Shown: positions 787 to 63,025 of the stretch, one piece after another | Numbering within the stretch: the stretch's first letter is position 1 | Layout: every line of letters starts with the position of its first letter | Assembly: GCA_037903355.1 (NCBI GenBank) | Contig: JBAJFE010000014.1 | Location: 4,588,001-4,652,000, forward strand | DNA length: 64,000 nucleotides | Source of the DNA: Trichuris trichiura | Taxonomy: Eukaryota; Nematoda; Enoplea; Trichinellida; Trichuridae | Direction of reading: 5' to 3' | The notes under the pieces: generated by a model | The model's input: only the letters and a program-made list of their open reading frames with translations | The model's database searches: none | Told to the model about the DNA's origin: nothing | Position numbers and translations under genes: made by a program

Positions 787-1162
787 TTCATCACTACTTT
801 ATACGGTATGTTTTCTTGCCCGATGATAGGTTCTGAAATTAAACCGAAGCAGATGCCCTACCAACGGATGGATGAGCAATTATTAAGGAAAAATACAGAA
901 CAAACACTTAACAGTTCGTAGCTTTCGGGACTAACCTTGTCCCATCGTCAGCGATAGTGGTAATGGTCTGGACAAGGTTAGTCCTGAAAGCTACGAACTG
1001 TTAAGTGTTTGTTCTGTATTTTTCCTTAATAATTGCTCATCCATCCGTTGGTAGGGCATTTGCTTCAGTTTAATTTCAGAACCCATCAACGGGCAAGAAA
1101 ACATACCGTATAAAGTAGTGATGAAAATCCATTGCCCCGTTAAGAAGCACCCCGTCTTCAAG
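787..1162. mobile_element. PLE-derived foldback element (E1) with 13-bp direct repeats
   Basis: Two inverted arms (about 787-942 and 973-1135) pair over about 150 bp around a short spacer. The right side carries an extra single-sided terminus ending in TCTTCAAG, as in the other members of the family. AGCAATGTACATT occurs on both sides, at 774-786 and 1163-1175, and reads as a target-site duplication. The left arm holds a well-formed hammerhead-like core on the minus strand; in the right arm the CTGA box is lost. It sits inside the 120-bp repeat array. Confidence 0.75.
915..954 (-). ncRNA. Hammerhead-ribozyme-like motif (E1, left arm)
   Basis: On the minus strand: CTGACGA, then one extra T, a GGGAC/GTCCC stem II with a 7-base loop, GAAA, then GCT, A (position 17) and CGA pairing with TCG as stem I. 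This fits C3-A9, G12-A14 and an NUH cleavage site (CUA) of a type I hammerhead with a two-base stem III. The base inserted after A9 departs from the minimal consensus. Activity is inferred, not shown. Confidence 0.6.
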
Positions 1163-1300
1163 AGCAATGTACATTGTGGATATCCCGTATACACACCAGC
1201 AGTGATACCTTGTGTATTCCATACACACGCTAAATAATCCCTCTATGCAAATATAAACAGCATAGGTACTACGTGGGTGCTGTATGGCTTTTAAAGTCTT

Positions 1301-1889
1301 TAACGAAGCAGGCAAGAAACAGTTAACAGCTTTTAAATGAGTGCGTATAACGATGTTTCTGTAGAATGTTTGTGTGAAATCAACTTTTAACCTTTTCATG
1401 TATTTTGAAAACGTATTTTAGAAATAACGTTTATGTTAGACGAAACAAAGAAGAGACATTCGATTCTCTGACCTATTGCTGGGCCCGCGTTGTCTAAATA
1501 AATGTTCCACAGTACTCAGCAAATGAGAAATCATTTCCATTTGACTGGTTTCTTTTACTAGTGTCGGCTATGTGTGAGGGACAATCTTATAAGCCAGTTT
1601 CCAGTATTGTTTTGTTCTTGCAGAAAAGTTAAAGATATTCTTTTAGTTTGCAGCTGTTGATGAGACGAAAGCGCTTTCTTCGCTCAAAAAATAGTAAATG
1701 CGCATTATTAATTTGAGGTAAGCATTTCAAGGTGAAATAACTTTAGCGTAAAATTAAGTAGTTTGGCGTAATCATAGGTTTAAATAAATAAATGCATTAG
1801 CGATGTACAATAATTCATGGCGGATTTGTTTGAAGCGTAGAGAACATTCGATACATTCAAAAATAGTTTGATAAAAGCATTCATTCCGC
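1301..1889. other. Intergenic, no feature recognised
   Basis: AT-rich sequence downstream of the minus-strand channel gene. It should hold the 3' untranslated region of that gene. I could not place a poly(A) signal with confidence and see no open frame of note. Confidence 0.5.
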
Positions 1890-4800
1890 TTAGACATTGG
1901 TTTCAACGTGAGCATTTTTCAACTTCGTTTCCAACGCTGCAATTCTGTCCTGGAGCGTTTGTTGCTCCTTTTCATACTGGTCGACGATAAGCTCGTAGCG
2001 CCGTTTGACATCTTCAATCTGGTCGGTAAAATACCTGGAAAGATTATCCATAATGTCTTCTTCTTCCTGCACGTTTTCGTCGAGTAAATTGTCCTTTCTT
2101 AAAATTTCTTTGCCTTTCATTATAAGCATTTTTCTTGCCTCTGGGTAGTAGCGTAGCACGCTCCAAAGATCATCCTTGGACAGCGCGAATAAGTTTGAAT
2201 ATCCGACGCTGCGTATGTTTGCCGTGCGACGGTTTCCATTTTTGTTACCCGCAATGTTCAGAATGCTTAGCTCACCAAAAACAGCTCCTTCGCTGAGGGT
2301 GGCAAATACTTTTGAACCGTCGTCAGAGACAACGTTGAGTTTTCCTTCCTTGACGATGTACATTTCCTTTCCCACGTCTCCCTTCTTGCATATATAATCA
2401 CCTGGACTGAATACTTGTAACTGAAGAGCCAATACAAGCTCAACAAGAAGCCCAGCTTCGCAGTCCTGAAAAATTGTCACCTTACGAAGCGTGCTGAAAT
2501 GAACATGTATTGCAATTTCAGCTCTCAACTTTGGCGGTAGGGTTTTTAGCGCTGAATCGCTGCCAAGGTTGATTTTTCGCGACCATTGATAGTCAAACCA
2601 TGTTATCACTCTTTTTTGCAGATCACGATCGACCTTATGTGACTCCATGAATTGCTTGATAGAGTCCATTCTGGACTGAAATTCTGTTCTTGCGGCATTC
2701 ATGTTTGTTATCATGCTACCTATGTTTCCTACCAACGTGGCGAATATGAGTACACCAATTAAGTAATCCACCGTATTGAATAAAATTTCTTCGTCCCTTT
2801 CAGGGTACGGAGTTTCCCCGATAGTAGTTAATGTTAAGGTTGACCAGTAAAAACTGTAGAAGTAGCGACGACTGAAAGAATCAGTCAAAGTGTTGTTGTC
2901 GTAGACCCATTGATCAGAACCAAGTCCTATTGCTTCACTGACAGCAAAATACAGGCAAGCATTTAGATGAATGATAACTAGTATGCAGCTGATTAGAGTG
3001 AACAGGCGAAATGCGTTTGGCCAGCTGGTTCGGGATTCTGTCCTTTCAGCAAACTCAAGAACAATCGGAAACTTGAAAAGGCGATTCAGCCGAGCCGTAG
3101 GATTAGCTAATCCCGTGAAAACGTAGAATACGTCGGTTGGTAGGATACTAATCGAGTCTAGCTTAAACCGGGTACTTTTCATGTAATTAATGGCCAGTTT
3201 CCGTAGGTCTCGTACAATTAGTCCTTGTTCAAGATAACCTACAAGAAGAAGATTTTAAGGCAATTATTAAATGTCAAGCGTAAATGGAAGCAACGTTCGC
3301 TTCAAATGTTTCAAAAGCTATTACGCGACACAGTTTGCAAGTAATTCTAAGAATTCGACATTGAAGAATACCTTTTCACAACGCAGTCAATCATAAGAGT
3401 TTTACCACTGCTGCTCTACTTTTCACATGATGTTCTGCAATAAGAGAGAGAGAGGGAGAGAGGAAATAAGCATTTTTATTTGCAAGATAAACTGCTGCAT
3501 AACGCTGCCGGACGACCAGTATGAGGGAGCAAAGTCGGTGCTATCGTTTTCTGATTAAGCTTGATAATCAGTAGTTGAAGGAATTCGCGCTTGCTTACGG
3601 ATTATCGCGTTTTCCCTGGCTCAGCCACTTCAGAGTCTACTTTTTCATTATAGATTTTTCCAATGCCTCTTGCTTCCCATTGCTCGCTCTATCATTCTTT
3701 TCACTCATTTAATTTCCTTGGTTTCATTGCTTTTCACCTTATCAGGCAACAAATAGAAGCGTTAATTTTGTATACCCAACTTTAGTGGAAGCTGTTCCCA
3801 CTGCCGGTTCGATCTGACTTACTACTGCTGTTCCGCCCTGCCGTCACTCTGCTTGTGAAAGTTTCATAACTCACCTTTCTCCTATCTGATTTTTAAAAGC
3901 CACTGGTTTGTCAGGTTTTTTCAGGAATATTGCAAGTGCCGAGCGTGCCTTTCCCCATTTTGTTACATCTTTCTCTTTAGCAAGCAAAGTAACCGTATAC
4001 ATGTCACTCAGTTTTTCTGATTCTTTCCTATTCACCATTCGTTTGTTCGCCAGGCAACCCCAAACCAGAATTGTGAATTACTATTGCGCGGAGCACAGTT
4101 GCCTGAGAGAAAACGTAAAAGGAATATTAGGAGTAGGGCTGCTAAGCAATGGATGTATCTTTCGAACCATGCTAAAGTAAAAACATAATGAGTCGAAATC
4201 AACGGTCGCTGTATATTCTACACTATTTAGTTAGTGTACCTGACGAGTCCTGAAAGTTATGGACATTTAACATTTTTACATTTATCAACAGTCATCTGTC
4301 GTTATAAAACTCAAAGACATATAAAGCTTTCCGTTGAATAACGCAAGGCTCAGTACGCGGTTAGCCGCGTCGTAAAAGTTCAGTGTATGGCTTTCTGACT
4401 TCCTGGTAATTATTAATAAGCAAATTATCATTCAGTATCGCCCATCTTGTTGTGCATATGCCATTCAGTTCCGCAATAATCTTTCCTATGTTATTCTGCA
4501 TAAGGAATGATTACGAAATGGCGTTGATGACGAATACGCACACATGCACAACAAGCCAACCTATTTAAGTGAATGCTGCGCGGAAACATAGGAGACTCAC
4601 CAGTACGAAACTTCACGATTATGTCAAATATGTAAACCATATCACATAAGTAATCAATCGCCAGCCATGCGGTTATGTAACTTTCTTGGTATTCATTGAA
4701 AACGGAACGAAGCACGACAGTTATCACGTTGTAAGTCACCGTGACACTAACGATTGCAGTCCAATAATAATAAGCATTTCCGTATGGTACGACAACTTTT

Positions 4801-9146: not shown

Positions 9147-9226
9147 AAGAAGTGCTCATCATGTTGAAATTGTCTTTTATTACGGATTTTTCTCCCGTTG
9201 TAAATTAAAACAAAAAGATCGTTTCT

Positions 9227-9266
9227 TCCGAAGCTTTCGGGTCTGCCGCGACCCGTCTTCAGCGGA
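9227..9266 (-). ncRNA. Hammerhead-ribozyme-like motif (E2, left copy)
   Basis: On the minus strand: TCCG, CTGAAGA, C, stem II GGGTC/GACCC with loop GCGGCA, GAAA, GCT, T, CGGA. TCCG/CGGA forms stem I. Predicted cleavage is between the T after GCT and CGGA. It lies 3' of the RT frame on the same strand. AGCT as stem III is palindromic and leaves no loop, so activity would need two motifs pairing; tiny stem III is known for PLE hammerheads. Confidence 0.7.
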
Positions 9267-9488
9267 CCAGTTCAGTTTGTGGTGGTTACTGAGATGACAT
9301 TTGTCTTCCGTCACTTATCAACGTTTAAAACGAGAGTTTTAAAGTTCTTCATCTGTGTCTGTCAGCTGCCAATATTCCTGTAGAAATTTGTTGCTGCGTG
9401 GGCCTAGCTTGTAGTTTCGTTTTCAATTTTGTTCCAAAAGTGTGATTTGATTTTTCTTCTTCTTCAGTGTTGCCGTTCCCATTGATTT

Positions 9489-10791
9489 TTAGCTTGTGTG
9501 TCCACTATTAAGGGAACAACAATCGTGGAGTGTGATGATATTTGTCCATAAATCAGTAATGTCGGCACCTTGGTCTCGGTTGAAAGTCACATTGTTTCTA
9601 ATATAGAGAGCCTCTTTTAGTTTTCTTAGGTGTAGGTTACTTTCATAGCAAAGGGCTCTTGGACGGAGGGGCTGTTTGCAATTCACCGCATGTTCTACCA
9701 CCGCGGAAGCTTGAATTGCCTTTTCCATGGTTTTTGTTGGATCCAATATTGGTCTTCCGCGGTGAGGTATTGGGGAGTGCATATTGTGTAGTCTACTTTT
9801 TGCATTGTTGTAACTGTTTAGTTTCCTTATGTGTTCTTGGAACCGGTGTTCTAAAGTATTCCCTGTTTCGCCGACGTAAACTGCTGAACAAGAGCATTCG
9901 ATTGCGTAGATGAGACCCGTTCTTTCGTTTATGGGAATTTTTCTTTTGTCCGTCCGGAGAATTGATCTGAGATTGGGAGAATTTTTGAAAAAGACTCTGA
10001 AGCCCAATCTTTTACCTAGCTGAATAAACTTTTCGCCTAGTCCCGCCACATATGGAACAACTAGACGTGGATATAGTGGGGTATTAGGATCAGGAGCTTT
10101 ACCCTTGTGTAGCCTGTATTTGAATACTCGGTCAATGAAGGATTTAGGATAATGATTTTTGTAGAAGACTTTTCTAATATAGTTAAGTTCCGGCCGTAGA
10201 TATTCAGGGTCACAAATATTGATTGCCCTATCGACCATTCCGGAGAGGATTCCACGCATTACTGATCGTGGATGATGTGATGAGAAGTTGAGATATTGTT
10301 CAGTCTGCGTGGGTTTCCTATAGACTCTGGTTTTAAGCCCTTCATTTGTGCGAATAATAAGCACATCTAGAAAGGGAAGGCTTTTGTTTTCTTCTTTTTC
10401 CATGGTGAAGACTATCTGGTTTGGGCACATGTTGTTGAGGAATTGTAGAAATTGTTCTTCTTTTCCGGCCTTGATAATTACAAAGATATCGTCCACGTAT
10501 CTTTTGAAGAGGAGTGGGGCGATTTGTCTGTCTACGTTTTCGAAAATTCTTCTCTCAAGGTTTTCCATAAACACTTCTGCTAAGACTGGGGATAAAGAAC
10601 TGCCCATTGGGACTCCGCTGGATTGTTTGTAGTATTTATTGTCAAACGTGAAGTAATTACCATCTTGCATGCAAAAAGAAACCAGCTTGATAATGTGAAA
10701 GGGATTTAACTTTGTTCTGCTGGGTAGACTTGTATCTGCATTGAGGAGGCTATACAACATCTCCAATGTGTCTGGCACTGGAATGCTCGGG
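9489..10791 (-). CDS. PLE reverse transcriptase/GIY-YIG endonuclease, 5'-truncated copy
   Basis: The open frame of the left copy begins inside the RT domain; the first Met is at 10778. Visible: GVPMGSSLSP, the catalytic YVDDIF box, SLPFLDVLI, and a C-terminal GIY-YIG nuclease (GLIYAIE ... VYVGETG, then a conserved HRFQEH). The reading frame is open to the C-terminal SLNSGHTS. The RT lacks the N-terminal ADKG segment and the first catalytic Asp motif (SYDVKDLF), present in the right copy, so this protein alone should not be a working polymerase. Nearly identical in sequence to the right copy. Confidence 0.85.
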
Positions 10792-12612
10792 ATCAGGAAT
10801 AGTTTATCTTCAACTATCCTAGGTCACAGCTTTAACAACACTCCAAACTTAAACCGATACGAGATGAATTGCTTACGTCATCTAAGACAACAATCCAACA
10901 GAATTATCACAAAAGCAGATAAAGGTAATAGAATAGTTATACTGGACAGAAGCACCTACACTGAAAAAATGACAACTATATTAAACACAGAGAATTACAC
11001 ACCTCTACCAGCCGACCCTACAGAAGCCTCTCGGAAAAATCTCCGTTCTCTTCTCGTTACGTTTGCCGCAGAGACCAAAGAATCAGAAATATCCAAATTA
11101 GCAACACATCTTAAATTCGCGTCGAATTATAGACCCCCTGAGCTATACGGGCTTCCCAAAGTAAACAAACCGGATGTCCCACGAAGACCAATAGTATCTA
11201 CAATCAACAGCACTACAAGCGAACTCAGTCGATACTTAAAAAAGATCATCAAACCCTTAACCGGCAAAGAACCCTCTTTCGTCAAAAATAGCAAATCTTT
11301 CGTCAATGAAATACGTAACCATCACTTGAAACCCGATGAGATTCTGGTTAGTTACGATGTAAAAGATTTATTCCCGAGCATTCCAGTGCCAGACACATTG
11401 GAGATGTTGTACAGCCTCCTCAATGCAGATACAAGTCTACCCAGCAGAACAAAGTTAAATCCTTTTCACATTATCAAGCTGGTTTCTTTTTGCATGCAAG
11501 ATGGTAATTACTTCACCTTCGACAATAAATACTACAAACAATCCAGCGGAGTCCCAATGGGCAGTTCTTTATCCCCAGTCTTAGCAGAAGTTTTTATGGA
11601 AAACTTTGAGAGAAGAATTTTCGAAAACGTAGACAGACAAATCGCCCCACTCCTCTTCAAAAGATACGTGGACGATATCTTTGTAATTATCAAGGCCGGA
11701 AAAGAAGAACAATTTCTACAATTCCTCAACAACATGCGCCCAAACCAGATAGTCTTCACCATGGAAAAAGAAGAAAACAAAAGCCTTCCCTTTCTAGATG
11801 TGCTAATTATTCGCACAAATGAAGGGCTTAAAACCAGAGTCTATAGGAAACCCACGCAGACTGAACAATATCTCAACTTCTCATCACATCATCCACGATC
11901 AGTAATGCGTGGAATCCTCTCCGGAATGGTCGATAGGGCAATCAACATTTGTGACCCTGAATATCTACGGCCGGAACTTAACTATATTAGAAAAGTCTTC
12001 TACAAAAATCATTATCCTAAATCCTTCATTGACCGAGTATTCAAATACAAGCTACACAAGGGTAAAGCTCCTGATCCTAATACCCCACTATATCCACGTC
12101 TAGTTGTTCCATATGTGGCGGGACTAGGCGAAAAGTTTATTCAGCTAGGTAAAAGATTGGGCTTCAGAGTCTTTTTCAAAAATTCTCCCAGTCTCAGATC
12201 AATTCTCCGGACGGACAAAAGAAAAATTCCCATAAACGAAAGAACGGGTCTCATCTACGCAATCGAATGCTCTTGTTCAGCAGTTTACGTCGGCGAAACA
12301 GGGAATACTTTAGAACACCGGTTCCAAGAACACATAAGGAAACTAAACAGTTACAACAATGCAAAAAGTAGACTACACAATATGCACTCCCCAATACCTC
12401 GCCGCGGAAGACCAATATTGGATCCAACAAAAACCATGGAAAAGGCAATTCAAGCTTCCGCGGTGGTAGAACATGCGGTGAATTGCAAACAGCCCCTCCG
12501 TCCAAGAGCCCTTTGCTATGAAAGTAACCTACACCTAAGAAAACTAAAAGAGGCTCTCTATATTAGAAACAATGTGACTTTCAACCGAGACCAAGGGGCA
12601 GACATTAGCTGA
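10741..12612 (+). CDS. PLE reverse transcriptase/GIY-YIG endonuclease, near-complete copy
   Basis: A 623-codon frame. The first ~17 codons (10741-10791) are antisense of the left copy, so the true element sequence begins near 10792. Domains: RT N-terminal ADKG (residue ~58), first catalytic Asp motif SYDVKDLFPSIP (~204), GVPMGSSLSP (~270), YVDDIF (~308), then GIY-YIG endonuclease (~503-530). PLE proteins prime reverse transcription at nicked DNA. At 12606-12612 one extra base relative to the left copy (GACATTAGCTGA against GACATTACTGAT) causes an early stop and removes about 20 residues from the C-terminus; both catalytic domains are intact. The true start and any upstream exon are uncertain because the junction may truncate the 5' end. 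Confidence 0.88.
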   Translation: MRRLYNISNVSGTGMLGIRNSLSSTILGHSFNNTPNLNRYEMNCLRHLRQQSNRIITKADKGNRIVILDRSTYTEKMTTILNTENYTPLPADPTEASRKNLRSLLVTFAAETKESEISKLATHLKFASNYRPPELYGLPKVNKPDVPRRPIVSTINSTTSELSRYLKKIIKPLTGKEPSFVKNSKSFVNEIRNHHLKPDEILVSYDVKDLFPSIPVPDTLEMLYSLLNADTSLPSRTKLNPFHIIKLVSFCMQDGNYFTFDNKYYKQSSGVPMGSSLSPVLAEVFMENFERRIFENVDRQIAPLLFKRYVDDIFVIIKAGKEEQFLQFLNNMRPNQIVFTMEKEENKSLPFLDVLIIRTNEGLKTRVYRKPTQTEQYLNFSSHHPRSVMRGILSGMVDRAINICDPEYLRPELNYIRKVFYKNHYPKSFIDRVFKYKLHKGKAPDPNTPLYPRLVVPYVAGLGEKFIQLGKRLGFRVFFKNSPSLRSILRTDKRKIPINERTGLIYAIECSCSAVYVGETGNTLEHRFQEHIRKLNSYNNAKSRLHNMHSPIPRRGRPILDPTKTMEKAIQASAVVEHAVNCKQPLRPRALCYESNLHLRKLKEALYIRNNVTFNRDQGADIS

Positions 12613-12896
12613 TTTATGGACAAATATCATCACACTCCACAATTGTTGTTCCCTTAATAGTGGACACACAAGCTAAAAATCAATGGGAACTGCAACACTG
12701 AAGAAGAAAAATCAAATCACACTTTTGGAACAAAAATTGAAAACGAAACTACAAGCTAGGCCCACGCAGCAACAAATTTCTACAGGAATATTGGCAGCTG
12801 ACAGACACAGATGAAGAACTTTAAAACTCTCGTTTTAAACGTTGATAAGTGACGGAAGACAAATGTCATCTCAGTAACCACCACAAACTGAACTGG

Positions 12897-12936
12897 TCCG
12901 CTGAAGACGGGTCGCGGCAGACCCGAAAGCTTCGGA
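12897..12936 (+). ncRNA. Hammerhead-ribozyme-like motif (E2, right copy)
   Basis: Same sequence as the left-copy motif, on the plus strand and 3' of the RT frame: TCCG, CTGAAGA at 12901-12907, GGGTC (12909-12913)/GACCC (12920-12924), GAAA (12925-12928), GCT, T, CGGA. It lies in the terminal repeat region, the place where PLE hammerheads are known to occur. Confidence 0.7.
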
Positions 12937-13052
12937 AGAAACGATCTTTTTGTTTTTAATTTACAACGGGAGAAAAATCCGTAATAAAGACAATTTCAAC
13001 ATGAGAACACACGCTCCCGTACGAAAGCACCATGTTTTCAAAGAAGCGCTCA

Positions 13053-15565
13053 TATATCCTTTTCGTCAGAAAAGAATTTTATGGTGGAAAAGAAGCGATC
13101 AATTTTGTCATTGAAATACCTGTTCTGCATTAGCAATAAGGAGACATATTGGTGCAAAAAGTTCTGTTAAAGAATTATCGATTTTTCCTGATTTTAAGAT
13201 AGGAAATGAAATGTTTTACAGGGCTACTGAACTTGCAAATTGTCAACCCATCCATCATTTTATGCTTTCATGGTAATGCGTCCTACAATTAGGTTTAATT
13301 GCACTTCATTATGCACCAAAGACATAGGATGAAAGCTTCGATCAACAGTACTGAGATGGCGCTAATCCATTGAGGTTATCACACTGCCTTCACCGGAGCT
13401 TTCTAAAAATCTCGTACTCATGGCTAGGTTGAAGTATAACTGAACAGTCGGCTTACTATAATTATTGCAATGTCCCTCAGGACTACAGTTCACACAACTC
13501 AAAGTCAGCAGTAAACATCTCACACATATGCGACGAAAACTTTCTGTACTTTTTATGCGGAATGCTACTTATTTAACGTACATACCGCTATTCGCAAGCC
13601 TCCCTGTGGCTTTGATGCACTAGTCATCTCATTGCAACTGTATGTTCGGGTTGCAGAAGGTAGGGGACCAATTTTCCTTGAATAATCAAAGTGAGGAAAT
13701 ATGGCCATGCGAAATGCACCAGCACTTTTTCAAGGACTTTGGACAAATAGGGCTGTTTCCGGAAAAGTTAGCCTAGTGATCAGCTTGCTGTCGACGTTTT
13801 AAGAAAGGAACAAGGGTTGCGTAAGTCACAGTTCAACTTCTTAGACCATATGCATTGTGCACCAGCTGCAACAGTCTAAAACGTGAATTCATCTTGAGCA
13901 GCTTTGTGTAGCTTACCTGGTGGAAGGAAGGCAGTCTACACTACAGCATAGTAGTTTAGTCTGCACTGACAGGGGTCAGTGGGAAGTGTTCATTTCATTT
14001 GCGCAACGTAGATTAATTGCCTCTCAGCGTTGCTGCTTAAAACTCGAGCGACCCGTAATGTGGCTATGTTGTCAATTCGATGCTACCAGTTCGCCCTTGC
14101 TCTTTCCGCACCGCAGTTCACTAAGCGCAGTTCTGGTTGCCAGGTAGATTTTGACTGGATAAGTCCTTATATGCAAGAACGCGATGCAAAAAGGCTAAAC
14201 GTATCTGCCACATTTTCGCGTTTGCCTATCGATTAATCAATTTATGGGTAAATGATACGATCTGAGTTGAAGATATAACCGTAATGATCTCTCTATGCGG
14301 GAAAGAGCTCTTGCTGGCTTTTCTTCATGCAATTTAGGCTACTTCAAAGCCAATCAATACTTCGTTTTCATGGCAAAGTTTTTTTGACCCAACTGTCTCC
14401 AAAAGCTTAATAGTTTATGATATACTTAAGCATCGATAGAGACGGAGAGCTATTTTTTGACGAGTTTTCTTCTGTTAAGTAGAATTTCCGTCTGCCTAAA
14501 CGAAGAAATAACTTTTGGGTAGATAAAAAAGTTTCAGCAGTTCATTTGCAGTCTAACCACCTGACATTTAACGATACAGTCGCTAGCCATTCTTGGCAGG
14601 CATTTCAGACTATGTTATAATAATCAATTCGTGAACGAATTAAGCAGATATTTCACCAGTTGTAAAGGCTATGTTTTGTTGGAACTCATCAAAAAAAGAA
14701 ATGTAATATAACATCTACACATGAGTGAAACCGAGTGTTCGGCCAAGTCTAAGAGGTAAACAGACTGTTTTTAACGGCTGCATTACCACGGAACCGCTAA
14801 TTCTGTGATCTGGTCAGTTACCTTCCGGCTGCGGCATTCATATTGCCGAAAATCGTTTCGTAAATTGGCTATTATGTTTGATGGCCGCTTCGATGAAAGT
14901 CTCGTATTATCGAACCGTCATCTGCCTGGACGATTTGGGTTGCCATCTTGTATTAGTCAGACCTGAACAAGGCGAAATGCTGAATGCGTGAGGAGGTCAA
15001 CTGTATTCCAGATCAACTTTTACTGGAAGATCAGTGCTTCTAATTCCAGACCGGAATGAAATCTTTAATAGGTAGGAAACATTTTAAAAGTGATTGTGTT
15101 CCGACTGTCTTGCACTTACAGTTGTTAAACAAGCGTCGTATTTCGAATTGGGAGATACTTTTGCTTTATCCTCCCATTGCCTCTGCATCGCTGTTGTGGA
15201 CGTGAAAGCATGCGGATCATTACACGGCACTTCATAATTAGATTGCTTCCTTAAATCTCAATTATTAATATGTTTGCTTAGATGGTGAACCAAAGAATTT
15301 AAGTTTTTTTAGAACTAAGAAACGTCCTTTTTGTTATGCTGAAGTTGCCCATCCAACACTTTTCAGAGTAGGCTAAATTTGTTTTCCCGCATTTTCTGTT
15401 TTGTTAGTGGCATTTCTCTTAAGTATATAAACATTACCCAAACTTCAGTACATTTATTCATATGTCAATTCTTTCATGATTTTCTGAATTCGTATTTCCT
15501 TCAGTTTATTTTCTTTCCCATCACTATGCACAGAAAGAACTAAGTTTTCGAGTGAATTGCCTATA
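13053..15565. other. Intergenic, nothing recognised
   Basis: Unique-looking AT-rich sequence. Short open frames at 13920-14236 show no domain and no convincing splice context. No RNA gene seen. Confidence 0.5.
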
Positions 15566-20609: not shown

Positions 20610-20691
20610 AACACTCGAACATTTGAAAATGTTTGGATTCTTTGTACGGAGACTGTTCCGTTGAAAAATAGAAAAACATTTTATTGTTGGG

Positions 20692-20730
20692 CCGTAGCTT
20701 CAGGCCGCGCGTGATCCGCCCTCAGCGGTA
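20692..20730 (-). ncRNA. Degenerate hammerhead-like motif (E3, left arm)
   Basis: Minus strand: CCG, CTGAGGGC in place of CTGANGA-C, a broken stem II, and GAAGCTACGG in place of GAAAGCTHCGG. Probably inactive. Its partner at 24711-24752 keeps CTGAGGA and GGAAAGCTACGG but also has a mismatched stem II. Confidence 0.5.
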
Positions 20731-20961
20731 CCAAAAATTAATGTAAATAGCGAATGCGACATCGCCACTCAATCGGTTTAACAGTTTAAAGTGAGTGTTT
20801 TAAAGTCTTCTGAAGTTCCTCTGATTCTGTCAGCCAATTGCGTCCATTGTTGCGTATATGTTGTACCATCCTACTATGTACATGTTATCTGATTTTTTAT
20901 ATTTTACTCCATTGTTCGTTTCACATTTGTTATATGCATTTTCCATTTCTTGTTCCATATA

Positions 20962-21125
20962 CAGTAGTCCATAAGTTCCATCCAAGGGACCGGGAAAAAC
21001 TGGTCAACATAAGAGGCCTTGGGTATATTATATTATTAACGTGCAGACCAACCAAGTGGTCAAAATTCGGTCAACTTAGGGAGGTGGTCGACATAGAGAA
21101 GTGGTCAACTTCTGTGGTTCTACTG
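20962..21125. mobile_element. pogo-type MITE, TA target site
   Basis: CAGTAGTCCATAAGTTCC at the left and the inverted GGTCAACTTCTGTGGTTCTACTG-type end at the right, with TA on both sides. It splits the left arm of E3: sequence on either side continues the alignment to the right arm. Confidence 0.8.
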
Positions 21126-21720
21126 TATATTCGTTTTCTGTATATTCTATTTGTTCCAATTTTTAAAATGTTCCTATACATGCTGTTTTGTGTATATGGT
21201 TTTATTGTTTTATATATGCAGTGGAACTTCCAAAGCTGACCACCTCCTTAAGTTTCCTGAAATTTGACAATTTGGTTGGTCAGCACGCAAGCGCAAGCGC
21301 AACCCCTATACGTTGACCACTTCCCTAAGTGGGAAGTTGACCGCTTTAGCCGTGACGTGGTATATGGACGCAATGCTACTTTGCTCTATAAGTTGACCAC
21401 TTCAGTTTGCTCTGTGTCCGTAGGTAGCTGTTCAGCGTCGGTGCCTGAAATGTATTGCTCAACATAGCGAAGTTTTGCATTTACCGCGCAGTGTTAATTC
21501 CTGAAGAGAGAACCGTTTCAGTCGTTTTGATGATGCTTTTTTATGCCTGCCGGCGCAGCTTGCGGGTTTTCTCGTTTACATGACCACCCACCCAGGCTTC
21601 GACAGCATTTTCCCATGGAGCAAAACATGACGAATAGAACCTAATTGTATTCATTCGCGTAGAGTTCATTTCTAGTCACTCCTTTTGCTGTATCCGTGCG
21701 GGAAATGGCTTTAGCGTGTC

Positions 21721-23453
21721 TTGACGAATAAAAGTATTCTGACTTACGTAGTAATAGCTACCAAAATGGTTACGGTTAGCACTTTGGCCAAACGGAAAGA
21801 ATCGAGAGAGTTGACACTGAAGAAAAAGTGCATCTTATCCACTTTCTCGGAACCAACAGTCAAAGGAAGACAGCAGAATGGTTCCATGTCAGCAAGACTA
21901 CCGTTAGCAACATCCAGAAACGTAAACGTGATTAATTGGAAAGATATGATTAGAAAAACAGAGAGGCAGAGAAAAAGGAGGAGAACCTCCCTCGACCAAG
22001 TCAATGAAGCAGCAACAAGTTGGTTTAAGCAAATGAGAGCAGCTAATGCACGGATCTCTGGTCCAATAATCCGGGAAGTTGCTAGAAGGTTCACCCTGGA
22101 ATTCAGGTTGACAGGTTTCCAAGCATCAAGCATGCGCATTAAGTGGTTAGCTCGAGAAATTCAAGCTCCGTTATAAGATTTCCCAGAAAATCTTATGCGG
22201 CAAGTCTAAGGAAGTTGCCATCGAAGTCTTGGAAAACTTCATCGCGAAGTTTGGGTCTTTTCAGAATTCTCCCCATCGCTGGCCGAGGCGGCAACTTGAA
22301 CCGGTAATGCGCGACGATAATGGGGATTAGCGGAGCAACTGGATGGACGTTTTACTGTAGGTTACTGAACACTTGCCTTGCAAGTTGAACGAACAGGACA
22401 ATGGAGCATCAGCGGCACATGCAGGAGGTGCGGTCACTGATCAGCGGATTACGTGCAGAGGAATTCCGTTACAGCAATGGAATAGCGGTTGCCATTGTGA
22501 CTGATGCAGTTACTGACCCTTGCGAGTTGTCCTTAATTTGCGTTAATCCCCACTTGACCTCCTGTGAAGTTGCCGCCTCAGCCTGCGCTGGGGAAAATTC
22601 CGAAAAGACCTTGAAGGTTTTGCTATTTCACCGGTGACTTCAAGGTGGAAGACACTTTCAATGCTGATGAATGCGGTTTGTTCTTCAGGGCCATGCTTGA
22701 TAGAACCTTTGTACTGGAAGGCGACAAATGCAAAAGCGGGAAGCTCTCTGAGGAACCCTTCACTGTGCCTCTTTGCGCTAGCGCAGCTCAGGAAAAGTTG
22801 GAGCCATTGGTGATTGGTAGGTCAGCAAAACCCTGCGCATTTAGGAGCTTGAGGACTGACGCCCTTCTTTTCACCTGGCGACAAAATAAATGCGGGTGGA
22901 TGACAGCCACTTTGTTCGAGGAGTAGGTAAGAAGTGTCAGCCGACAGATGAAGCAAATGAAACGTTCCATCTTATTGGTACTAGACAACTGTCTGAACCG
23001 TCCTCGCGTGGGGCAGCTCACAAATGTCACGTTGAAATTCCTGCCTCCAAACATTTCCACAAAAACACAGCTTCAAGATCAAGGAGTAATTAAGACATTT
23101 AAAGCGAAATACTGGACCCAGCTTCTGCAATGGGTCATCAACAAAGCGGCGCAGCTGTGGGTGCGACTTCGGTTGCTGCTCCCATTAATGCTTTGGACGC
23201 CATACTTTGGTACAGTTCTTCCTTGAATAAAATTCAACCGGAAGCAATAAGGAAATGCTTCAGGGGAGCTGGATTCGTCAGAGATAAAGAGGATGATGTC
23301 GAGCTTCGACCCGATAGTCCGACTTTCGAAGCAGAGATTGAAGGAGTAGATTTCGAAGATTTCGTTGCAATAGATAATGACGTGGCCACTTCTACCGAAC
23401 CTGACCCACAAGCAATTTTCCAATCTATACAACCGAAGCGGAAATGTGCGTAG
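21721..23453 (+). pseudogene. pogo/Tigger transposase, broken by frameshifts and an insertion
   Basis: 21721-22176 carries the CENP-B-type DNA-binding region (ATSWFKQMRAAN..ISGPI). 22630-22926 carries the first catalytic Asp region (TFNADECGLFF, then GGKLS-like and PLVIG). 22948-23120 carries LLVLDNC and, after a shift, DQGVIKTFKA. 23130-23453 holds the C-terminal NKIQPEAIRKCFRGAGF. Frames differ between pieces, and a stop ends the block at 22924. About 370 bp of foreign-looking sequence with its own inverted repeats separates the N-terminal and catalytic parts. Confidence 0.88.
22247..22616. repeat. Inverted repeat inside the transposase region
   Basis: About 45 bp near 22250-22305 (GGTCTTTTCAGAATTCTCCCC...GAGGCGGCAACTT) recurs inverted near 22560-22612. 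The enclosed DNA interrupts the transposase between its DNA-binding and catalytic parts. It may be a nested non-autonomous element or an internal rearrangement; no clear target duplication was seen. Confidence 0.6.
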
Positions 23454-23911
23454 AAGCGAGTAGCGCAGGAGACGACGCAGAGTAGGAAAACGACAATGAG
23501 GCAGAAATGGTACACAAGTTGAAGGAAGAGGACGTCAGGCGCGTGTTAGCGTAGCTGAAGTGTTTTGCTGCTGAAAAATGTTCAGAGATGCTGACGGGGT
23601 AGCCAGCGAGAAGGTCGCCCTTACCGCCTATGTTTGTAGTAAGAACAAGCATCAGCCGAGGATTGACACTTTTTTAGGAAGCATTCTAGCCGCTGAAAAG
23701 CCTTATGCATGATTTTACAGTGGAGTCAGTTATATGCACCCGACCATTTAGTAGACCTTCAATAGATGCTGTGATGCTGTGCAACAGAATGAAATGCGTA
23801 CAGAAACGAATCTACTCAGCTGAGCCCATTATACCCACAATCTCCCTGTGTTGATCAGTTTTCTCCAGTCGCTTGGGTAGTCAACTCATGGAGGTTCAAC
23901 TGTACATGTTA

Positions 23912-24106
23912 CTCCAGTTTTTCACTTTGCTCCATGTGCTCATGTATGCAATTAATTTAACGAACAGCAGTTGGAACGCACGATAATCTTCGTCTATAAT
24001 TCTCTTATTTCCGCTCCTTGATCGCGGACTTATGTCCCAACTGCTGCTCATTAAATTAATTGCGTACATGAGAACATGGAACAAAGTAAAAAAATGGAGT
24101 GACATA
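23912..24106. repeat. Palindrome (arms about 65 bp) at the core of E3
   Basis: The stretch from 'tttttcactttgctccatg' to 'cagcagttgg' pairs with the inverted copy ending at 'gtaaaaaaatgg'. Spacer about 65 bp. Its central position suggests it is the original centre of the inverted E3 element, displaced by the pogo insertion. Confidence 0.7.
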
Positions 24107-24220
24107 TATGTAAAACAATAGAACTACTTGAATATATGGTGTCTTGGTAAGGGACAATAACTTTTCATAATGAATTGACTTTAATTACGGAGTCAAGTCC
24201 CGTCGAAAAAACGTTTTTCT

Positions 24221-24258
24221 CCAGAGCTTTCGGGTCGAACGAGACCCGTCTTCAGCGG
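24221..24258 (-). ncRNA. Hammerhead-ribozyme-like motif (E4, left arm)
   Basis: Minus strand: CCG, CTGAAGA, C, GGGTC/GACCC stem II, GAAAGCT, C, then CTGG in place of CGG. All core boxes are present; stem I is weakened by the substitution. Confidence 0.6.
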
Positions 24259-24299
24259 TTATAAGTTGAATGACATGAATGTTGACATTCAACTTATAA

Positions 24300-24337
24300 C
24301 CGCTGAAGACGGGTCTCGTTCGACCCGAAAGCTCCGG
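24300..24337 (+). ncRNA. Hammerhead-ribozyme-like motif (E4, right arm)
   Basis: CCG (24300-24302), CTGAAGA (24303-24309), C, GGGTC/GACCC stem II with loop TCGTTC, GAAA (24327-24330), GCT, C (24334), CGG (24335-24337). One of the best-formed copies among the small elements. Confidence 0.65.
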
Positions 24338-24859
24338 AGAAATAAACGTCTTTTCGACGGGACAATTCATTATGAAAAGTAGAACTACTTATACAAAACA
24401 TCATACATAAAAAAATTTTAAAAAATAGACACATTTATAAGGAACAAAGTGGAATCTACAGAAAACCAATTTTCATATATGTAACAAGAAATGGAAAATG
24501 CATGTAACAAATGTGAAAAGAACAATAGAGCAAAATATTAAAAAATCAGATAACATGTACATAGTAGGATGGTACAACATATACGCAACAATGGACGTAG
24601 TTGGCTGATGGAATCAGAGAAACTTCAGAAGACTTTAAAACACTCACTTTAAAGCGTTAAACCGATTGAATGGCGATGTCGCATTCGCTATTTACATTAA
24701 TTTTTAGTACCGCTGAGGACGGGTCACACGTGGCCGGAAAGCTACGGCCTAAAGATAAATTTTTTTTGTATTTTTCAACGGGACAGTCTCTGTACAAAGA
24801 ATTCAAACATGAAAAACTATGGTCCCGTACCGAAAAGTTATATTTTGAAAACACTCGAA

Positions 24860-30924: not shown

Positions 30925-31461
30925 TTACGCAGGGGGCGGTTTAGGTTCCCCTCCGGCAGGCTGCTCTTTCCCGTCGGCAGGTGGGGCGGCTGGGGTTTCG
31001 CCACCAGCTGCTGGTGCACCCTCTGCAGGTGGTGCAGCAGCTCCTTCGGGTGGAGGAGCATTTGGAGCCTGCGGTGTTGGCGGGGCAGGCTCAGGTTCAT
31101 TTTTGAACTCCACCTTAATGGTTAACTCACGCCATGCAGTCACGGTTTTCCAAATCTCGGCCGCGTCCGACTGATCATCTGGTGCTGCTATATACAGAAC
31201 AACCAGCTTATGATCGTACTGCTTGTTAGCATTGAAAGTAAATGGTAGGCAGCGCACATGTAACATTTTCACCTGTCCAGGTTCTATTAAACCAACAGTG
31301 ACGTTAGCAAGAAAAAGGGAATTATCGGATGTTCGCAGCTTAATTGCTACACGCTTCTGACCAGTATTGCTCAATTTGACGGATGAGCTTTGCCGCCGGT
31401 CAAAGGGAGCGTAGTAAACCAGCGTAGCAGGGTCAACCTCCAAGTTGAATTTCTTCGACAT
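30925..31461 (-). CDS. MSP-domain (major sperm protein-like) protein with Pro/Ala-rich tail
   Basis: A single-exon 178-aa frame. Residues ~1-115 form an immunoglobulin-like MSP domain: FNLEVDPATLVYYAPFDRR, then VKLSNTG, VAIKLRTSDNSLF, VTVGLIEPGQ and a C-terminal VEFK strand. Residues ~120-178 are almost only Pro, Ala, Gly and Glu, with PPA/EGAP-type repeats. No signal peptide or membrane anchor, so cytosolic. Stand-alone MSP-domain proteins are typical of nematodes, where they serve in sperm motility or as adaptor domains. The tail is unusual for a cytoskeletal MSP and may be a flexible linker. Start chosen at the first ATG, 478 bp downstream of the EF-Tu stop on the same strand. Confidence 0.88.
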   Translation of the reverse strand: MSKKFNLEVDPATLVYYAPFDRRQSSSVKLSNTGQKRVAIKLRTSDNSLFLANVTVGLIEPGQVKMLHVRCLPFTFNANKQYDHKLVVLYIAAPDDQSDAAEIWKTVTAWRELTIKVEFKNEPEPAPPTPQAPNAPPPEGAAAPPAEGAPAAGGETPAAPPADGKEQPAGGEPKPPPA

Positions 31462-39400: not shown

Positions 39401-42400
39401 GATTCTGGACACCACTTGATTGAGATGACAGACTTCATGGGTAGATGGAGAAGGATCATTGTTTGGAAGAATACTCATCCTCGATCATTGGTTGTTCATC
39501 CGATAGTTGGGTGAATGGATTCTGTTTGGCCATTTCTACTTAACATACGAGTTTTTCAGGTACTTATATTGGGCCGAATGGCTGGGTCACTCGCGACTTG
39601 AGCGCTCCGAGTTGGATGGTGAGAATCGCATAACTCTGCTGAAGAATGTAGGACGCATTTTTGCCATCACCATTGACTACGCTATGGGAAGACTCTTCTG
39701 GTCTGAGGTCGATGCACCCAGCATTCAGTCGGTAGACCTGAACGGTAAGCTAAATGCTTTATTGCATTTTTTTAAAACTTAGCCGGTGTGTTTGAGGTTA
39801 GTAAGGAGCAAATAGTAATATTTCTTCTAGGATGACGTTAAAGTTGAGACAGATGCAATTCGTTTAACCATGCATCTTGGTTTCTTGGTACGGGACCGTA
39901 TGTTTTCATAATGAAATAGCTTTATCACGGAGAGCGTCACGTTTCATGTGCGATAAAAAGCCTTGAACTCCGGCGCTTTCGGGTCACTCGAGACCCGTTT
40001 TCAGCGGTCTTAAATTAATAATTGATAATTAATAATTTAAGACCGCTGAAGACGGCTCTCGAGTGACCCGAAAGCTCCGGTGTTCAAGGTTTTTTATCGC
40101 ACATTAAACGGGACGCTCTCCGTAATAAGGCTATTTCATCATGAAACCATGCATCTTTGCATAACGTTGTGCAGATGTATTTATACCTTGGAAAAGCATG
40201 GCTTTTTTGTTGTGTATGGTTGGTCTCCCGTTTATGTGAGGAGGAAATGAGAAAATATTTTTATTTTTACCTCGAAGAAGCTTTTGAAACTTTCTAGTTC
40301 CATCCTCAGCGTAATTTCGCAGAATATTTTACCGTAGCAATGTTTCTGTGTCGACAGTGCTACAGGACACTGCGGTGACTATGATTCTTAAGCAAGCTTC
40401 TTTTAATTCGTTCTCCAGTTGCGATATGGATCAGCTAAAAAATAGCCGGTACATTTTATTGAATGCGTCAGTTTCTAGAGTAAACTAAAAACGGAGCGTT
40501 TTACAAGATAAAACCCGCGTGCTAGGAGAATTGAAGATCTGTGTGCCATTCGCATAATTTGTAGTCTTGTTCTGGTAACCCAACTGTTTCACGTAGAACT
40601 AGATGATTAAAAGGTAAAGAATAAAACAGTTAAGAACCCCGAGCTATATAGTACTTCAACTGGGCATACTGTGAATTGTGCTTCTTTTGTTGCTGTGTAA
40701 TCTTTATGGATCGTGCGTAAGTAAACTTGCGGTAATGTTTATCTGGAACGCGAAGGCAATTATTTTTTGACCGTCAAAATACGTTAGCTACGTTAGGCCC
40801 TTTCATTGTTGCTAAGTAATTGGAGGCCTTGGTCCTGTCATGAAAGGCTGCAAATTACTGACCAACAATAGAATGAATTTAGCGTAAGTATTTCACTTTG
40901 AAAATATCTTTATTACGGATTCTCTCCCGTTGAGAAGTAAAATAAAAAGATTTTTTCTTCCTTCCGAAGCTTTCGGGTCTGCCGCGACCCGTTTTCAGCG
41001 GTCCAATGAAGTTTGTGGACCGCTGAAGACGGGTCGCGGCAGAGCCGAAAGCTTCGGAAGGAAGAAAAAATCTTTTTATTTTACTTCTCAACGGGAGAGA
41101 ATCCGTAATAAACATATTTTCAATATGAAAACACACGCTCCCGTACAAAAGCATCATGTTTTCAAGTATTTCACTGTCAAAAGTTATTTCATGTTTTTCG
41201 CAGGTGGATCCCGGCAAATGATCGTGAAAGAGCGTTCTATGCAACCATATGTTCTGACTGAATACGCTGATCGGCTTTACTGGGCGAATTGGAGAAGACA
41301 GCGAATCGAAATATGTGACAAAGCAACTGGTCGAAATCGATCGACTTTGCAAATTCCTCTGCATTACATAATAAACTTAGTAGCTGTGCATGCTCTCAAG
41401 CAGAAAGGTAGGAAGGATTTCAAAATCTCGCTTGGCAGCTGATCGCTGTCATTTTTAGGTTGGAATTATTGTTTCTTGAAGAAAAGGCAATGCGAGAATT
41501 TGTACGTCTCTTCGCCAGAGAGACAATGTCGCTGCGCTTGCGCCACCCACTACGCCCTCGGCAGCGACAAGAAGAGCTGCCTCCGTAGGGGAACGATGGT
41601 GCGATGCATGCAACATTTGTTTTTCACTTTCAACTTTCAGCTCCAAATACGTTTGTACTCTTCTCGCAAGGGTCCACCATTCGTAGAATGAAAATTCGGG
41701 ACAGGCAGGATACTGAGGAACATCCAGTAATGGCGTTTCCTTTTCCCGATCAAATGAACGCCCACTCCGTGCAATACGATCCATTGAATCAGACGATTTA
41801 TTGGCTGGCGTCCAAATATTCGTACTCCTCCGAAGTCGGAGGTTACGTAAATGTCCTTAGAAGAGCAAAAGACAGGGGGAATAAGGTGGTTTAGCATGTG
41901 TTTCTGTTGACTATAGGGACTGTTATTTTTTAAAAAAATTTTTCAGGTCGAGGAAGTCAAACTTTCCCGATCGGAAGTGGAAAGGCCTTTTGACATTGCT
42001 TACGAACCTTTCTCACAAACTCTGTTTTGGAGTTGCGAGAGTACAGCAAGTGTCAATGCAACGCGGCTAATTCGTGGTGAGGTTAAGCCGTTGGGTGGTA
42101 TTGTCTCTGATTCTGATTATACTCCAAGGGCATTGACAGTTTATGCCAAGCGCAGGTGAGCAGCCACGTTGCTTTCCAGATGGCTATTTTGCAATGTTTG
42201 CTTTCTGAGATAAATCAGTAAACAAGACGTCCGCGTGCATAAAAAGCAAAAGTCTTTTTCGTTATTGGATTTCTTTTATGAATCGGTTCGTCTCCTATTA
42301 ACAATGAAATTAGTATTACTATTATTATCCATAAATCAACTTTGTGAATGATGAAGTAACCACTCTGGAGGGATTACGGTAAGTCTTCCTCTTCTGCGTT

Positions 42401-48104: not shown

Positions 48105-48384
48105 CTGAAAAGACAAATTTTGTTTAAGAACATAATGAAGAAACACAGTAATCACGTACAGGTTTGGGAACTATCTTGGAAAATATACAGTCCAGCTACT
48201 TGCCAGTCAATAACTAAGAACGAGCGGATAAAAAGGTTGCTAACAAACCGTTCAAAGCGAAATGCTGACTGGCCACGTTGTGACGCATGAATTGCACTAT
48301 CCATTGTAAGCTTGTTTGGAAAGGGAAACAGGGATTATACTGTAGGCATTTCAAGTAAGTCATTAAACGCTACAGCGAAAATTT

Positions 48385-48568
48385 TCATAATGTAAAAGTT
48401 TTATTACGGAAGTATTCCCGTTTAATGTGCTAAATAACTCCGGAGCTTTCGGGTCTCGGTCGACCCGAAGGCTCCGGAATTATTTAACACATTAAACGGG
48501 AATACTTCCGTAATAAAACTTTTACATTATGAAAACATACGCTCCCGTACCAAGAAACCACATTTTCA
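48385..48568. mobile_element. PLE-derived foldback element (E7), hammerhead core deleted
   Basis: A 184-bp near-perfect palindrome. Arms meet inside what is stem II of the hammerhead in the other copies (CGGGTC TCGGTC GACCCG), so no CTGAAGA box remains. AGCGAAAATTT flanks it (48374-48384 and 48569-48579). The extra terminus ACGCTCCCGTACCAAGAAAC is on the right. Confidence 0.9.
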
Positions 48569-48579
48569 AGCGAAAATTT

Positions 48580-59290: not shown

Positions 59291-59300
59291 GTAGTTGCGC

Positions 59301-59667: not shown

Positions 59668-59878
59668 AATTTGAAATTAATCACTTTTTCTTCAACATTT
59701 CCACTTAGGCATTGTAACTGTTATAGATAAATCTATACCGCAGGTATATTACTTTCCAATATTTTTCAGTCAACTTTCTGACTGAAAAATATTGGAAAGT
59801 AAAGTACCTGTGGCATAGATTTATCTGTAACGGTTACAATGCCTGAGTGAAAATGATGAAAGGGTTAATTTCAAATTT
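59668..59878. repeat. Foldback element with ~100-bp arms
   Basis: AAATTTGAAATTAA at the left matches TTAATTTCAAATTT at the right. The arms run to an 8-base spacer (AACTTTCT) near 59770-59777, so the whole 211 bp is one hairpin. Different sequence from the PLE-derived foldbacks; no target duplication identified. Confidence 0.88.
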
Positions 59879-59879
59879 A

Positions 59880-60651
59880 TCTCTATGATAGCAAGCCAAC
59901 GGAAAGAAAATATACGCTTGCTCATTGAACACAGACTACCGGATTCCCTACTCATGTCGAATGGGTGCACAAACTAGGGGCAACGATAGCAAATGTATTT
60001 CTGAGATGCTTTATTTTTCGTTCTGCTAATTCTAGGGTTTCTGATGGCAATAAAATGACTTCAGAGTTGCTTGCTTGCATCACCGTAATCACAGTGGAAA
60101 AATGTGACTCGCACATAACATTGTCAGACTTTGGCAGGCAGCGTTATGAGCGAACGTATTTCTTAAAAGATGCACAGGCAAATGTGATCTGGAAATGTTC
60201 AAGCTGTTTTATTCCTGTTCATACAACATAGTGGTCAATGGACGCATGACAGGTCGCCCAGAGACAAATCAATTTCATCTACGAAAGCTAAGCAGATTCG
60301 CAAGAAGAGAATCAAAATGGTTAAATGTTCACACGAATCGCATTGACGTGATCAGGGTGGCCATACTTAGGCCTCCCCCTTCTGTGCTGAGTCACGGCAG
60401 CACAGAAGCTTGAAATGACGGTCAACCAACATGTACCAGCACGTAATCTGCTAACCGCCTATGATTACAAGGTGAACTACAGACAGAAAACATTGTTTCG
60501 TTGTTTAACTTCTTCTCATAGGCTAAACAGGTTCTCTATTCAAAAAACAGAGATTCATAATACAGTATAAGAAGAACATCAGCTTGGCTGCAAACATTCA
60601 TGAGCAAATACCGGTAGCACCAAAAATGCGTAAGGCGAACTGCAACCTAAT
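59880..60651. other. Intergenic, nothing recognised
   Basis: Downstream of the phosphorylase kinase gene. The frames at 59965-60231 and 60195-60413 have no domain. Confidence 0.5.
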
Positions 60652-62080: not shown

Positions 62081-62750
62081 CTGACGTTACGGCGCAAAAT
62101 CCGGAACCATAAAAGCTCGAACTATCGTGAATGCGGAGCTCAACAGCTCGAACTTTAAAGTCCCAAACAATCAAGGATTACGAGCATAATCGTGAAAGCT
62201 AGCAATCTGAGTGGGTTGATCCTATGGCGAGAGGAAACACTGCAGAATTAGTGTATTTGCAACTTGTAAATAAGGAACACATTTGAATTTTAAAAAATAT
62301 TCCTATATTGGTGACTTCTTCTGTAGCTGCTCTTATTCTTTTCCTGCTTCCCCTTTCGCTTACTGTGGGGCGATGATTTCGCGCAAAACTTTGCAGCAGC
62401 ATAATTAGGAGTTCGCTTAGCTGTATACAAGCTAAGTTTGTAAATAAACAAAGCAAAAAAGATAAAACTTTGAAAAGGGGACTCCCTGCAGTGATAGAAG
62501 GGCGCGCCATTTTTCTTGATTCGTGGCAAGCGATAGGAAGAAAAAGAAAAATGCCATATATTTTAGGTCTCTCCGCCCTTCTTAAATTACTTTAATTTCA
62601 GTATGTTCAGGCCTAAACAGTATTTTTAGCAATCACAGCCTGCACCTTTCGAAATTTTAACCTTTTCAAAGTTTCGACCCACTTAGCGTTTCTATCCATT
62701 TCTGACTCCTGATCTTTTCTATTCTTTTTCAGATTTAAGCTCATTTCCCA
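62081..62750. other. No gene assigned; possible further PHKB exons
   Basis: Minus-strand frames around 62290-62529 contain a basic stretch (SPHSKRKGKQEKNK) but no motif I can tie to phosphorylase kinase. The missing N-terminal exons should lie here or past the window end. Confidence 0.4.
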
Positions 62751-62756
62751 TAGCTT

Positions 62757-63025
62757 TGAAAACGCAGCTTCTTGGTATGGAACAGTGATATTTCACGTAG
62801 AGCACACAAGTACATTGTCACATTGGTGTCCCGTTATTATATTCAATAAATTTCTTGCCTGAGATTTTGGGTTAGGCCTTAATCCATCTTCAGTGGATAG
62901 GTGGTGAGAATAGTTCGCTGCCGCTAGCCAGCCGCTGAAGATAGCTTAACGCCTAACCAGAAAGCTCCGGCAACAAATGTATTGAATTTAATCACGGGAC
63001 ACTTCCGTAACAATAAACTTGCATG
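62757..63025. mobile_element. PLE-derived foldback element (E8), eroded
   Basis: Arms CCCGTTATTATATTCAATAA (from 62832) and its inverted, diverged copy ending at 62999. The left outer sequence CTTTGAAAACGCAGCTTCTT matches the inverted long terminus of the family. A hammerhead remnant on the plus strand (62931-62972) keeps CCGCTGAAGATAG and AGAAAGCTCCGG. No clear flanking duplication. Confidence 0.65.

Follow-up and report, generated by a model that had tools for sequence, protein, structure and literature searches.

Inverted Penelope-like elements and their miniatures in Trichuris trichiura carry one tail per insertion and point to probable two-strand priming

How do Penelope-like elements (PLEs) insert, and why are inverted pairs of them so frequent? 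We address this question from a 64,000-nucleotide stretch of Trichuris trichiura DNA, the window (assembly GCA_037903355.1, contig JBAJFE010000014.1, positions 4,588,001 to 4,652,000; bases 4588001-4652000 of contig C1 in our searches), which holds eight inverted-arm elements, E1 to E8, and from their relatives throughout the 72.7-Mb genome (62 contigs). The paper that proposed self-priming for such elements asks for experiments separating the insertion models (PMC3846280), and the 2024 biochemistry of an Anolis PLE leaves the later insertion steps unvalidated (PMC11167929; these and the other papers are cited from parts of their text). Many short, sharply bounded insertions in one genome amount to a record of the insertion reaction. 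That record suggests that copies of this endonuclease-bearing PLE were probably made by two-strand target-primed reverse transcription (TPRT).

All eight window elements consist of two inverted arms plus an extra terminus of ~36 bp, here called the tail, on one side only (8/8), as had been predicted from the window alone. The direct repeats predicted to flank seven of them are present at E1 to E7 as target duplications of 10-16 bp (each P 0.0007-0.004 against 3000 random pairs of 50-bp stretches), and E8 lacks one:

787..1159, + strand: E1, diverged inverted-arm PLE copy, tail right; duplication 771-786 / 1160-1175
9160..13040, + strand: E2, two head-to-head PLE copies, 5'-truncated; duplication 9147-9159 / 13041-13053
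20620..24849, + strand: E3, old inverted-arm PLE copy; duplication 20610-20619 / 24850-24859 (10 bp)
24130..24379, - strand: E4, miniature nested in E3, tail left; duplication 24119-24129 / 24380-24390 (11 bp)
39879..40144, - strand: E5, miniature, tail left; duplication 39866-39878 / 40145-40157 (13 bp)
40898..41163, + strand: E6, miniature, tail right; duplication 40886-40897 / 41164-41175 (12 bp)
48385..48568, + strand: E7, miniature, tail right; duplication 48374-48384 / 48569-48579 (11 bp)
62757..63025, - strand: E8, old diverged miniature, tail left; no target duplication found

The duplication of E1 is 16 bp long with one mismatch and includes 13 bp of exact identity, and that of E2 is 13 bp long, also with one mismatch. 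The terminal 'AAG' of 'TTTTCAAG' is frequently part of the target duplication and not of the element. E3 is interrupted twice, by a Tc5-like transposon (PF03221) and by E4, and the other arm of E3 serves as the paralogous empty site of E4 (score 42; control 15; best of 200 shuffles 24).

The identity of the arms is given by the coding copies. E2 was predicted to encode a PLE reverse transcriptase (RT) and a GIY-YIG endonuclease; Pfam matches to both were found, but E2 is not a complete element and its open reading frame (ORF) is 5'-truncated. It comprises an inverted left copy (~9160-10791) and a right copy (~10795-13040), with these parts:

9489..10778, - strand: inverted left copy of the coding region (Pfam RVT_1 and GIY-YIG)
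10741..12612, + strand: open frame of the right copy with the PLE reverse transcriptase part (Pfam RVT_1), N-terminal part missing
13004..13040, + strand: one-sided tail of E2; the equivalent stretch in a longer copy, L035, is the first codons of the ORF

The right copy begins at about residue 230 of the longer L035 ORF, so that ~230 N-terminal residues are missing. In the inverted copy both RVT_1 and GIY-YIG are recognised by Pfam, placing RT and GIY-YIG in one ORF as in endonuclease-bearing PLEs; in the E2 right copy and in L035, RVT_1 alone is above the Pfam threshold. L035 shows the anatomy of the full element in the order inverted arm, direct 5' region, ORF, 3' untranslated region (3'UTR), hammerhead and ~100 bases of the 5' region repeated, and its frame ends at base 6813, short of the element end. 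The PLE pseudo-long terminal repeat (pLTR) is thus present in L035 in both direct and inverted orientation, and the tail, as read in this copy, is the first dozen codons of the ORF. The arms of the miniatures match the PLE 3' end rather than a DNA transposon, as the original prediction held.

The predicted restriction of the tail to one side holds throughout the genome. Exactly one tail was found in 79/79 elements of 146-1535 bp and in 10/10 long copies, and tails on both sides in 0/89, with the tail-less side scoring at most 12 and the tailed side at least 25; L080 (the same as L075) and the nested L079 were excluded from this scoring. L079 is a miniature inserted between the arms of another miniature. 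In a sample of 20 head-to-head E7-type pairs found by hammerhead pattern, without a tail query, each of the 16 pairs examined has exactly one tail (12, plus 4 long pairs). Of the six long copies for which the ORF-bearing arm is known, four have the tail on the short arm and two on the ORF-bearing arm; the left arm and ORF start of these copies were known beforehand, and the far end, fetched later, proved tail-less in the 4 with a tailed short arm and tailed in the 2 with a tail-less one. If the two strands chose their start sites independently, at most half of the copies would have exactly one tail. The long pairs were assembled from 20 fetched stretches, of which 14 served ten pairs (six with earlier loci, eight with each other); the L163 stretch was used for a one-armed copy, L165 was uninformative and the left end of L169/L170 fell outside the sample. 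L164 and L166 hold PLE 3' ends in complex arrangements, adjoining inverted PLE sequence or bearing another inserted PLE end, and L159 is a PLE copy that seems to lie within or next to an E1-like foldback.

Target duplications of 10-18 bp flank 55/58 parsed copies (33/34 and 22/24 in two sets), far from the scarcity of direct repeats that would have spoken against the original prediction; their variable length is that of PLEs and not the fixed length of miniature inverted-repeat transposable elements (MITEs). The first set includes two duplicated loci (L004, a duplicate of L003, and L014, of L010), which were excluded from later counts, and the second set of 24 copies excludes L067, the left arm of which was out of reach. 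L029, L049 and L071 count as misses and were excluded from the junction and duplication-length tables; L049 and L071 lack a 10-bp duplication. For the ten long pairs, duplications were found by script in nine (L171/L172 in a simple repeat) and by eye in L101/L161, missed by the script.

Both junctions carry microhomology. At the tail-less junction, target and element overlap by at least 2 bases in 31/52 copies (~3.3 expected; L045 was excluded as an artefact), and across the tailed junction the RNA sequence runs on into the target for at least 2 bases in 32/53 (~3.3 expected), a count that keeps 7 rows with a poor match to the reference. Measured from the tailed end, the outer end without a tail is 28-49 nt away in 51/52. 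Priming at both ends, which such overlaps may reflect, fits the biochemistry of the Anolis PLE, the protein of which cleaves and extends both strands (PMC11167929).

The arms contain a hammerhead-like motif, the core pattern of which occurs 8 times in the window and 0 times in 100 shuffles:

917..951, - strand: hammerhead-like core, E1, left arm only
9229..9262, - strand: hammerhead-like motif, E2 left arm
12901..12934, + strand: hammerhead-like motif, E2 right arm
24713..24746, + strand: hammerhead-like motif, E3 right arm
24303..24336, + strand: hammerhead-like motif, E4 tail-less arm
40046..40079, + strand: hammerhead-like motif, E5 tail-less arm
41023..41056, + strand: hammerhead-like motif, E6 tail-bearing arm
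62935..62969, + strand: degenerate hammerhead-like motif, E8

The motif had been described as paired. It is real by conservation and is a predicted ribozyme, but it is not found in every copy: by eye, the CUGANGA core is missing from both E7 arms and from the E1 right arm, and the left arms of E5 and E6 are altered at the position taken as G8. A CUGANGA / GAAA / UH core with paired helices I and II is that of the PLE hammerheads without helix III, which have already been described (PMC7761336; PMC11167929). Here AGCU takes the place of stem III, and an additional pyrimidine stands between the core and stem II. Among 71 distinct motifs, counted with paired helices demanded, the base before the cleavage site is C in 52, U in 13, A in 6 and G in 0, and position 7 is variable. 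With the core fixed, paired changes are seen in helix II (GGGUC/GACCC, GGGAC/GUCCC, GGAAC/GUUCC) and in helix I (CCG/CGG, UCG/CGA, UCA/UGA). A predicted fold of the 3' region, in which the tail pairs with the arm (ACGGGAG/CUCCCGU), has z-scores of -2.2 to -3.2 in four sequences, and the alignment contains matched changes (GGGAC with GUCCC) as well as exceptions such as L015. The Rfam hammerhead models had no match in the window, and a genome search with RF03152 and RF00163 had none either, its controls being silent too. Strong scores of microRNA models in the window look like hairpin artefacts of the inverted arms and were set aside.

Genome-wide, the E6, E7 and E5 queries gave 84, 103 and 95 matches, with 40 of 565, 40 of 1055 and 40 of 1226 candidates scored, respectively; one locus often yields two matches, its arms being inverted. 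The hammerhead pattern of the E7 subfamily occurs at 300 genome sites (146 forward, 154 reverse) and that of the E6-related subfamily at 101, each with 0 occurrences of the backward control. Among the 100 sites listed per pattern, 42/44 neighbour pairs closer than 5 kb are head-to-head and 1 is direct. The head-to-head pairs separate into two sets by spacing, 15 of them being 28-60 bases apart and 27 of them 100-2964 bases apart (with a single pair of the latter set below 230), and the miniatures (~150-290 bp) therefore form a discrete class and are not merely the tail of random truncation. Three miniatures (L089, L093, L096) have common flanking sequence, either a duplicated host segment or another repeat, and are not independent.

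The point at which the two arms meet bears on how the pairs arose. There are 56 distinct centres among the 66 miniatures scored (of 76), and the longer arm is the left in 23, the right in 23 and within 2 nt of the other in 17 (n=63). Even the copies with identical arms (8/30) have centres that differ from one another. Since centres differ in nearly every copy, most copies were probably made at insertion and did not, as had been proposed, move as inverted units; that proposal survives for at least two pairs, L024/L040 and L056/L058, which look like whole-unit copying. L024/L040 also share a variant found in the right arm only, and by eye L067/L074 share a centre. Six copies including E7, the arms of which join within hammerhead stem II, meet in this stem, and two more (L053, L054) do so in the opposite orientation. 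Because such centres occur among copies with arms of different subtypes, the stem II palindrome seems to be a preferred joining place.

The inner arm ends share a sharp 5' boundary. They lie at most 21 nt upstream of the hammerhead core in 124/126, a tally made without the rows chosen by a pattern biased to ends near -20; a second tally that includes those rows places 102/108 ends within 5-21 nt. Upstream of this limit, longer copies carry on with the 3'UTR. We take this limit to mark the 5' end of the RNA, at about -20, which is probably where transcription starts within the pLTR. A cap-derived extra G at the 5' ends was considered, but too few copies were informative on this point. L113 and L114 were considered as full-length starts at -20 and dropped, since longer upstream sequence is common to both. 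Only two of the 126 arm ends, those of L063 and L064, come within 3 nt of the predicted cleavage site; hammerhead cleavage is rejected as the source of the arm ends for most copies, and uncleaved RNA seems to be the usual template, as it is for the Anolis PLE (PMC11167929).

The two arms of one copy are also of one kind. At four subtype sites, the arms of a copy disagree in 4/113 cells, whereas 2000 random pairings gave 50 discordant cells on average and never fewer than 25. A random pool of RNAs does not fit these figures; a single RNA copied twice, or two RNAs of one locus, does. L062, with arms discordant at subtype sites, is a possible chimera of two RNAs or a two-template insertion.

In the reaction that we consider probable for these copies, the element enzyme, perhaps as a dimer, would cut both target strands, and each target 3' end would pair with a few bases of the PLE RNA and then start a cDNA. 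A distal start would copy the ~36-nt tail, the start of the ORF, and a proximal start ~36 nt upstream would leave no tail. Both cDNAs, perhaps templated by one RNA, would be extended toward the 5' end of the RNA and then joined 5'-to-5' at their inner ends, presumably by host repair; the insertion would have its inverted arms head-to-head, with a single tail and with the target duplicated. On a short pLTR RNA with its 5' end ~20 nt upstream of the hammerhead, the product would be a miniature. To our knowledge PLE RTs have no RNase H, and the same RNA could be copied twice for that reason. We hold the odds to be even that PLEs normally integrate by coupling both strands in one reaction on a single RNA, with two RTs at start sites 36 nt apart, one per strand. 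If they do, a complete insertion consists of exactly one tail and two inverted arms, and short pLTR RNAs yield miniature foldbacks, a retrotransposon-derived counterpart of MITEs. Two neighbouring start points on the element RNA would explain the long-puzzling inverted layout.

Other routes to such pairs have to be weighed. We consider it rather unlikely that two separate RNAs, perhaps joined by a dimeric stem-III-less hammerhead, were reverse transcribed from the two target ends. The AAAGCUH core does place a self-complementary AGCU where stem III would be, dimeric cleavage of such hammerhead variants is cited in PMC7761336, and the arms of L062 differ at subtype sites, but random pairing predicts ~18/30 discordant elements where 3/30 are observed, and a pair of RNAs does not in itself account for the strict one-tail rule. 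Self-priming, in which cDNA or antisense RNA snaps back on itself at the hammerhead palindrome to prime the second arm before the hairpin is inserted, was proposed for the Adineta Penelope elements, on an antisense template (PMC3846280). It accounts for palindromic centres, six of them (E7 included) exactly in stem II, and for arms of the same source. It is nevertheless expected to fix the side of the loop relative to the tail, and the 23:23 split of the longer arm disfavours simple snap-back; the stem II centre occurs in both orientations, and self-priming predicts neither target microhomology at both junctions nor a single tail in each insertion, whether the short or the ORF-bearing arm carries it. 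We hold self-priming to be quite improbable here, and the miniature class and the strict rule support two-strand priming over it.

The pairs with shared centres are what would be expected if a founder foldback were transcribed and retrotransposed whole, with centres changing later because hairpins are unstable. This route has, in our judgement, only a slim chance for the family: the 8/30 copies with identical arms have mutually different centres, the long copies obey the one-tail rule too, and TPRT should often truncate the left arm, which is truncated in only 1/52, though our searches favour full-length copies. We give next to no credence to a DNA transposon, MITE or foldback, that has no relation to the PLE. 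Short length, inverted arms and target duplications are common to both, but here the arms are the PLE 3' end, the duplications vary from 10 to 18 bp, the termini are not symmetric, differing by the tail, and pair distances extend to those of coding copies.

Several points weigh against two-strand priming as a general account. The pairs L024/L040 and L056/L058 each share a centre in spite of unrelated flanks and different target duplications, and the arms of L047, L055 and L062 are discordant at a subtype site. Most of the 79 elements were found by tail-bearing queries, so tail-free copies are possibly under-sampled; L164 and L166 were too complex to score for the tail rule; and two copies, the solo pLTR L033 and the 5'-truncated L104/L163, are one-armed, each with a tail and target duplications. 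The junction overlaps alone do not prove priming because any microhomology-guided joining gives them too, and the Anolis PLE in vitro, unlike the junctions here, shows neither a strand difference nor homology between start site and cut DNA (PMC11167929). The comparison was made in one assembly, which has no relative to supply orthologous empty sites.

The window also contains remains of another transposon and three host genes:

21200-24120: Tc5-like DNA transposon remains (PF03221), short broken frames, within E3
1890-3182: cyclic-nucleotide-gated channel gene, host
30925-31461: MSP-domain protein gene (PF00635), host
43503-44741: LDL-receptor-like protein gene, host

A near-perfect hairpin of ~75-110 bp at 59724-59836 was matched only by microRNA and snoRNA models and is perhaps a MITE. 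The genes of the window are of eukaryotic type, and a nematode SL1 leader sequence was looked for and found absent.

Known systems share parts of this picture. In LINE-1 twin priming both target ends prime reverse transcription, as proposed here, but the inverted part is not duplicated, whereas in our elements both ends copy the same stretch of RNA.

Metazoan non-LTR retrozymes resemble the miniatures in being short, non-coding, hammerhead-bearing and of similar size (PMC7229834; PMC7761336), and they are thought to depend on PLEs (PMC7761336). They are arranged in direct tandem repeats, carry full type I hammerheads and have circular RNAs (PMC7229834; PMC7761336); the elements described here are head-to-head pairs (42/44) with a tail and a stem-III-less motif, and are not retrozymes in that sense.

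The purified protein of PAc, the Anolis Poseidon PLE, cleaves and extends both strands in vitro. Reverse transcription starts at two neighbouring sites inside the PAc RNA, where the ORF begins, and the tail is the interval between them (PMC11167929). PAc also has a reduced hammerhead, which is dispensable for its insertion and overlaps the start codon (PMC11167929), whereas here the core lies ~85-105 nt upstream of the start codon; and where PAc in vitro shows no strand difference and no start-site homology (PMC11167929), the genomic products here are inverted and have junction microhomology.

In the Penelope elements of Adineta vaga, inverted pLTRs with a tail on one side were described (PMC3846280). 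As in T. trichiura, direct pLTRs surround the ORF and an inverted pLTR is added head-to-head, the pLTR and tail hold the first ORF codons, and junction palindromes and solo pLTRs occur; the target duplications are 8-10 bp and the tail on one inverted pLTR is 31 bp (PMC3846280). Each Adineta family has few copies, for which self-priming was proposed (PMC3846280), whereas here 89 scored copies obey the one-tail rule, with microhomology at both ends and a discrete miniature class. The original prediction that this is not a described class thus fails for the inverted architecture with a one-sided tail, which is published (PMC3846280) and the tail of which has a biochemical explanation (PMC11167929), and stands for the miniatures, of which we found none in print: limited searches of the Penelope-like literature, weak evidence of absence, returned neither a miniature two-armed PLE class nor a strict one-tail rule. 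The one-tail-per-insertion rule is exact and open to test in any genome that carries PLEs, as well as with the in vitro system already established. The anatomy is known, and this family adds to it a miniature class and a strict one-tail rule as a new variation.

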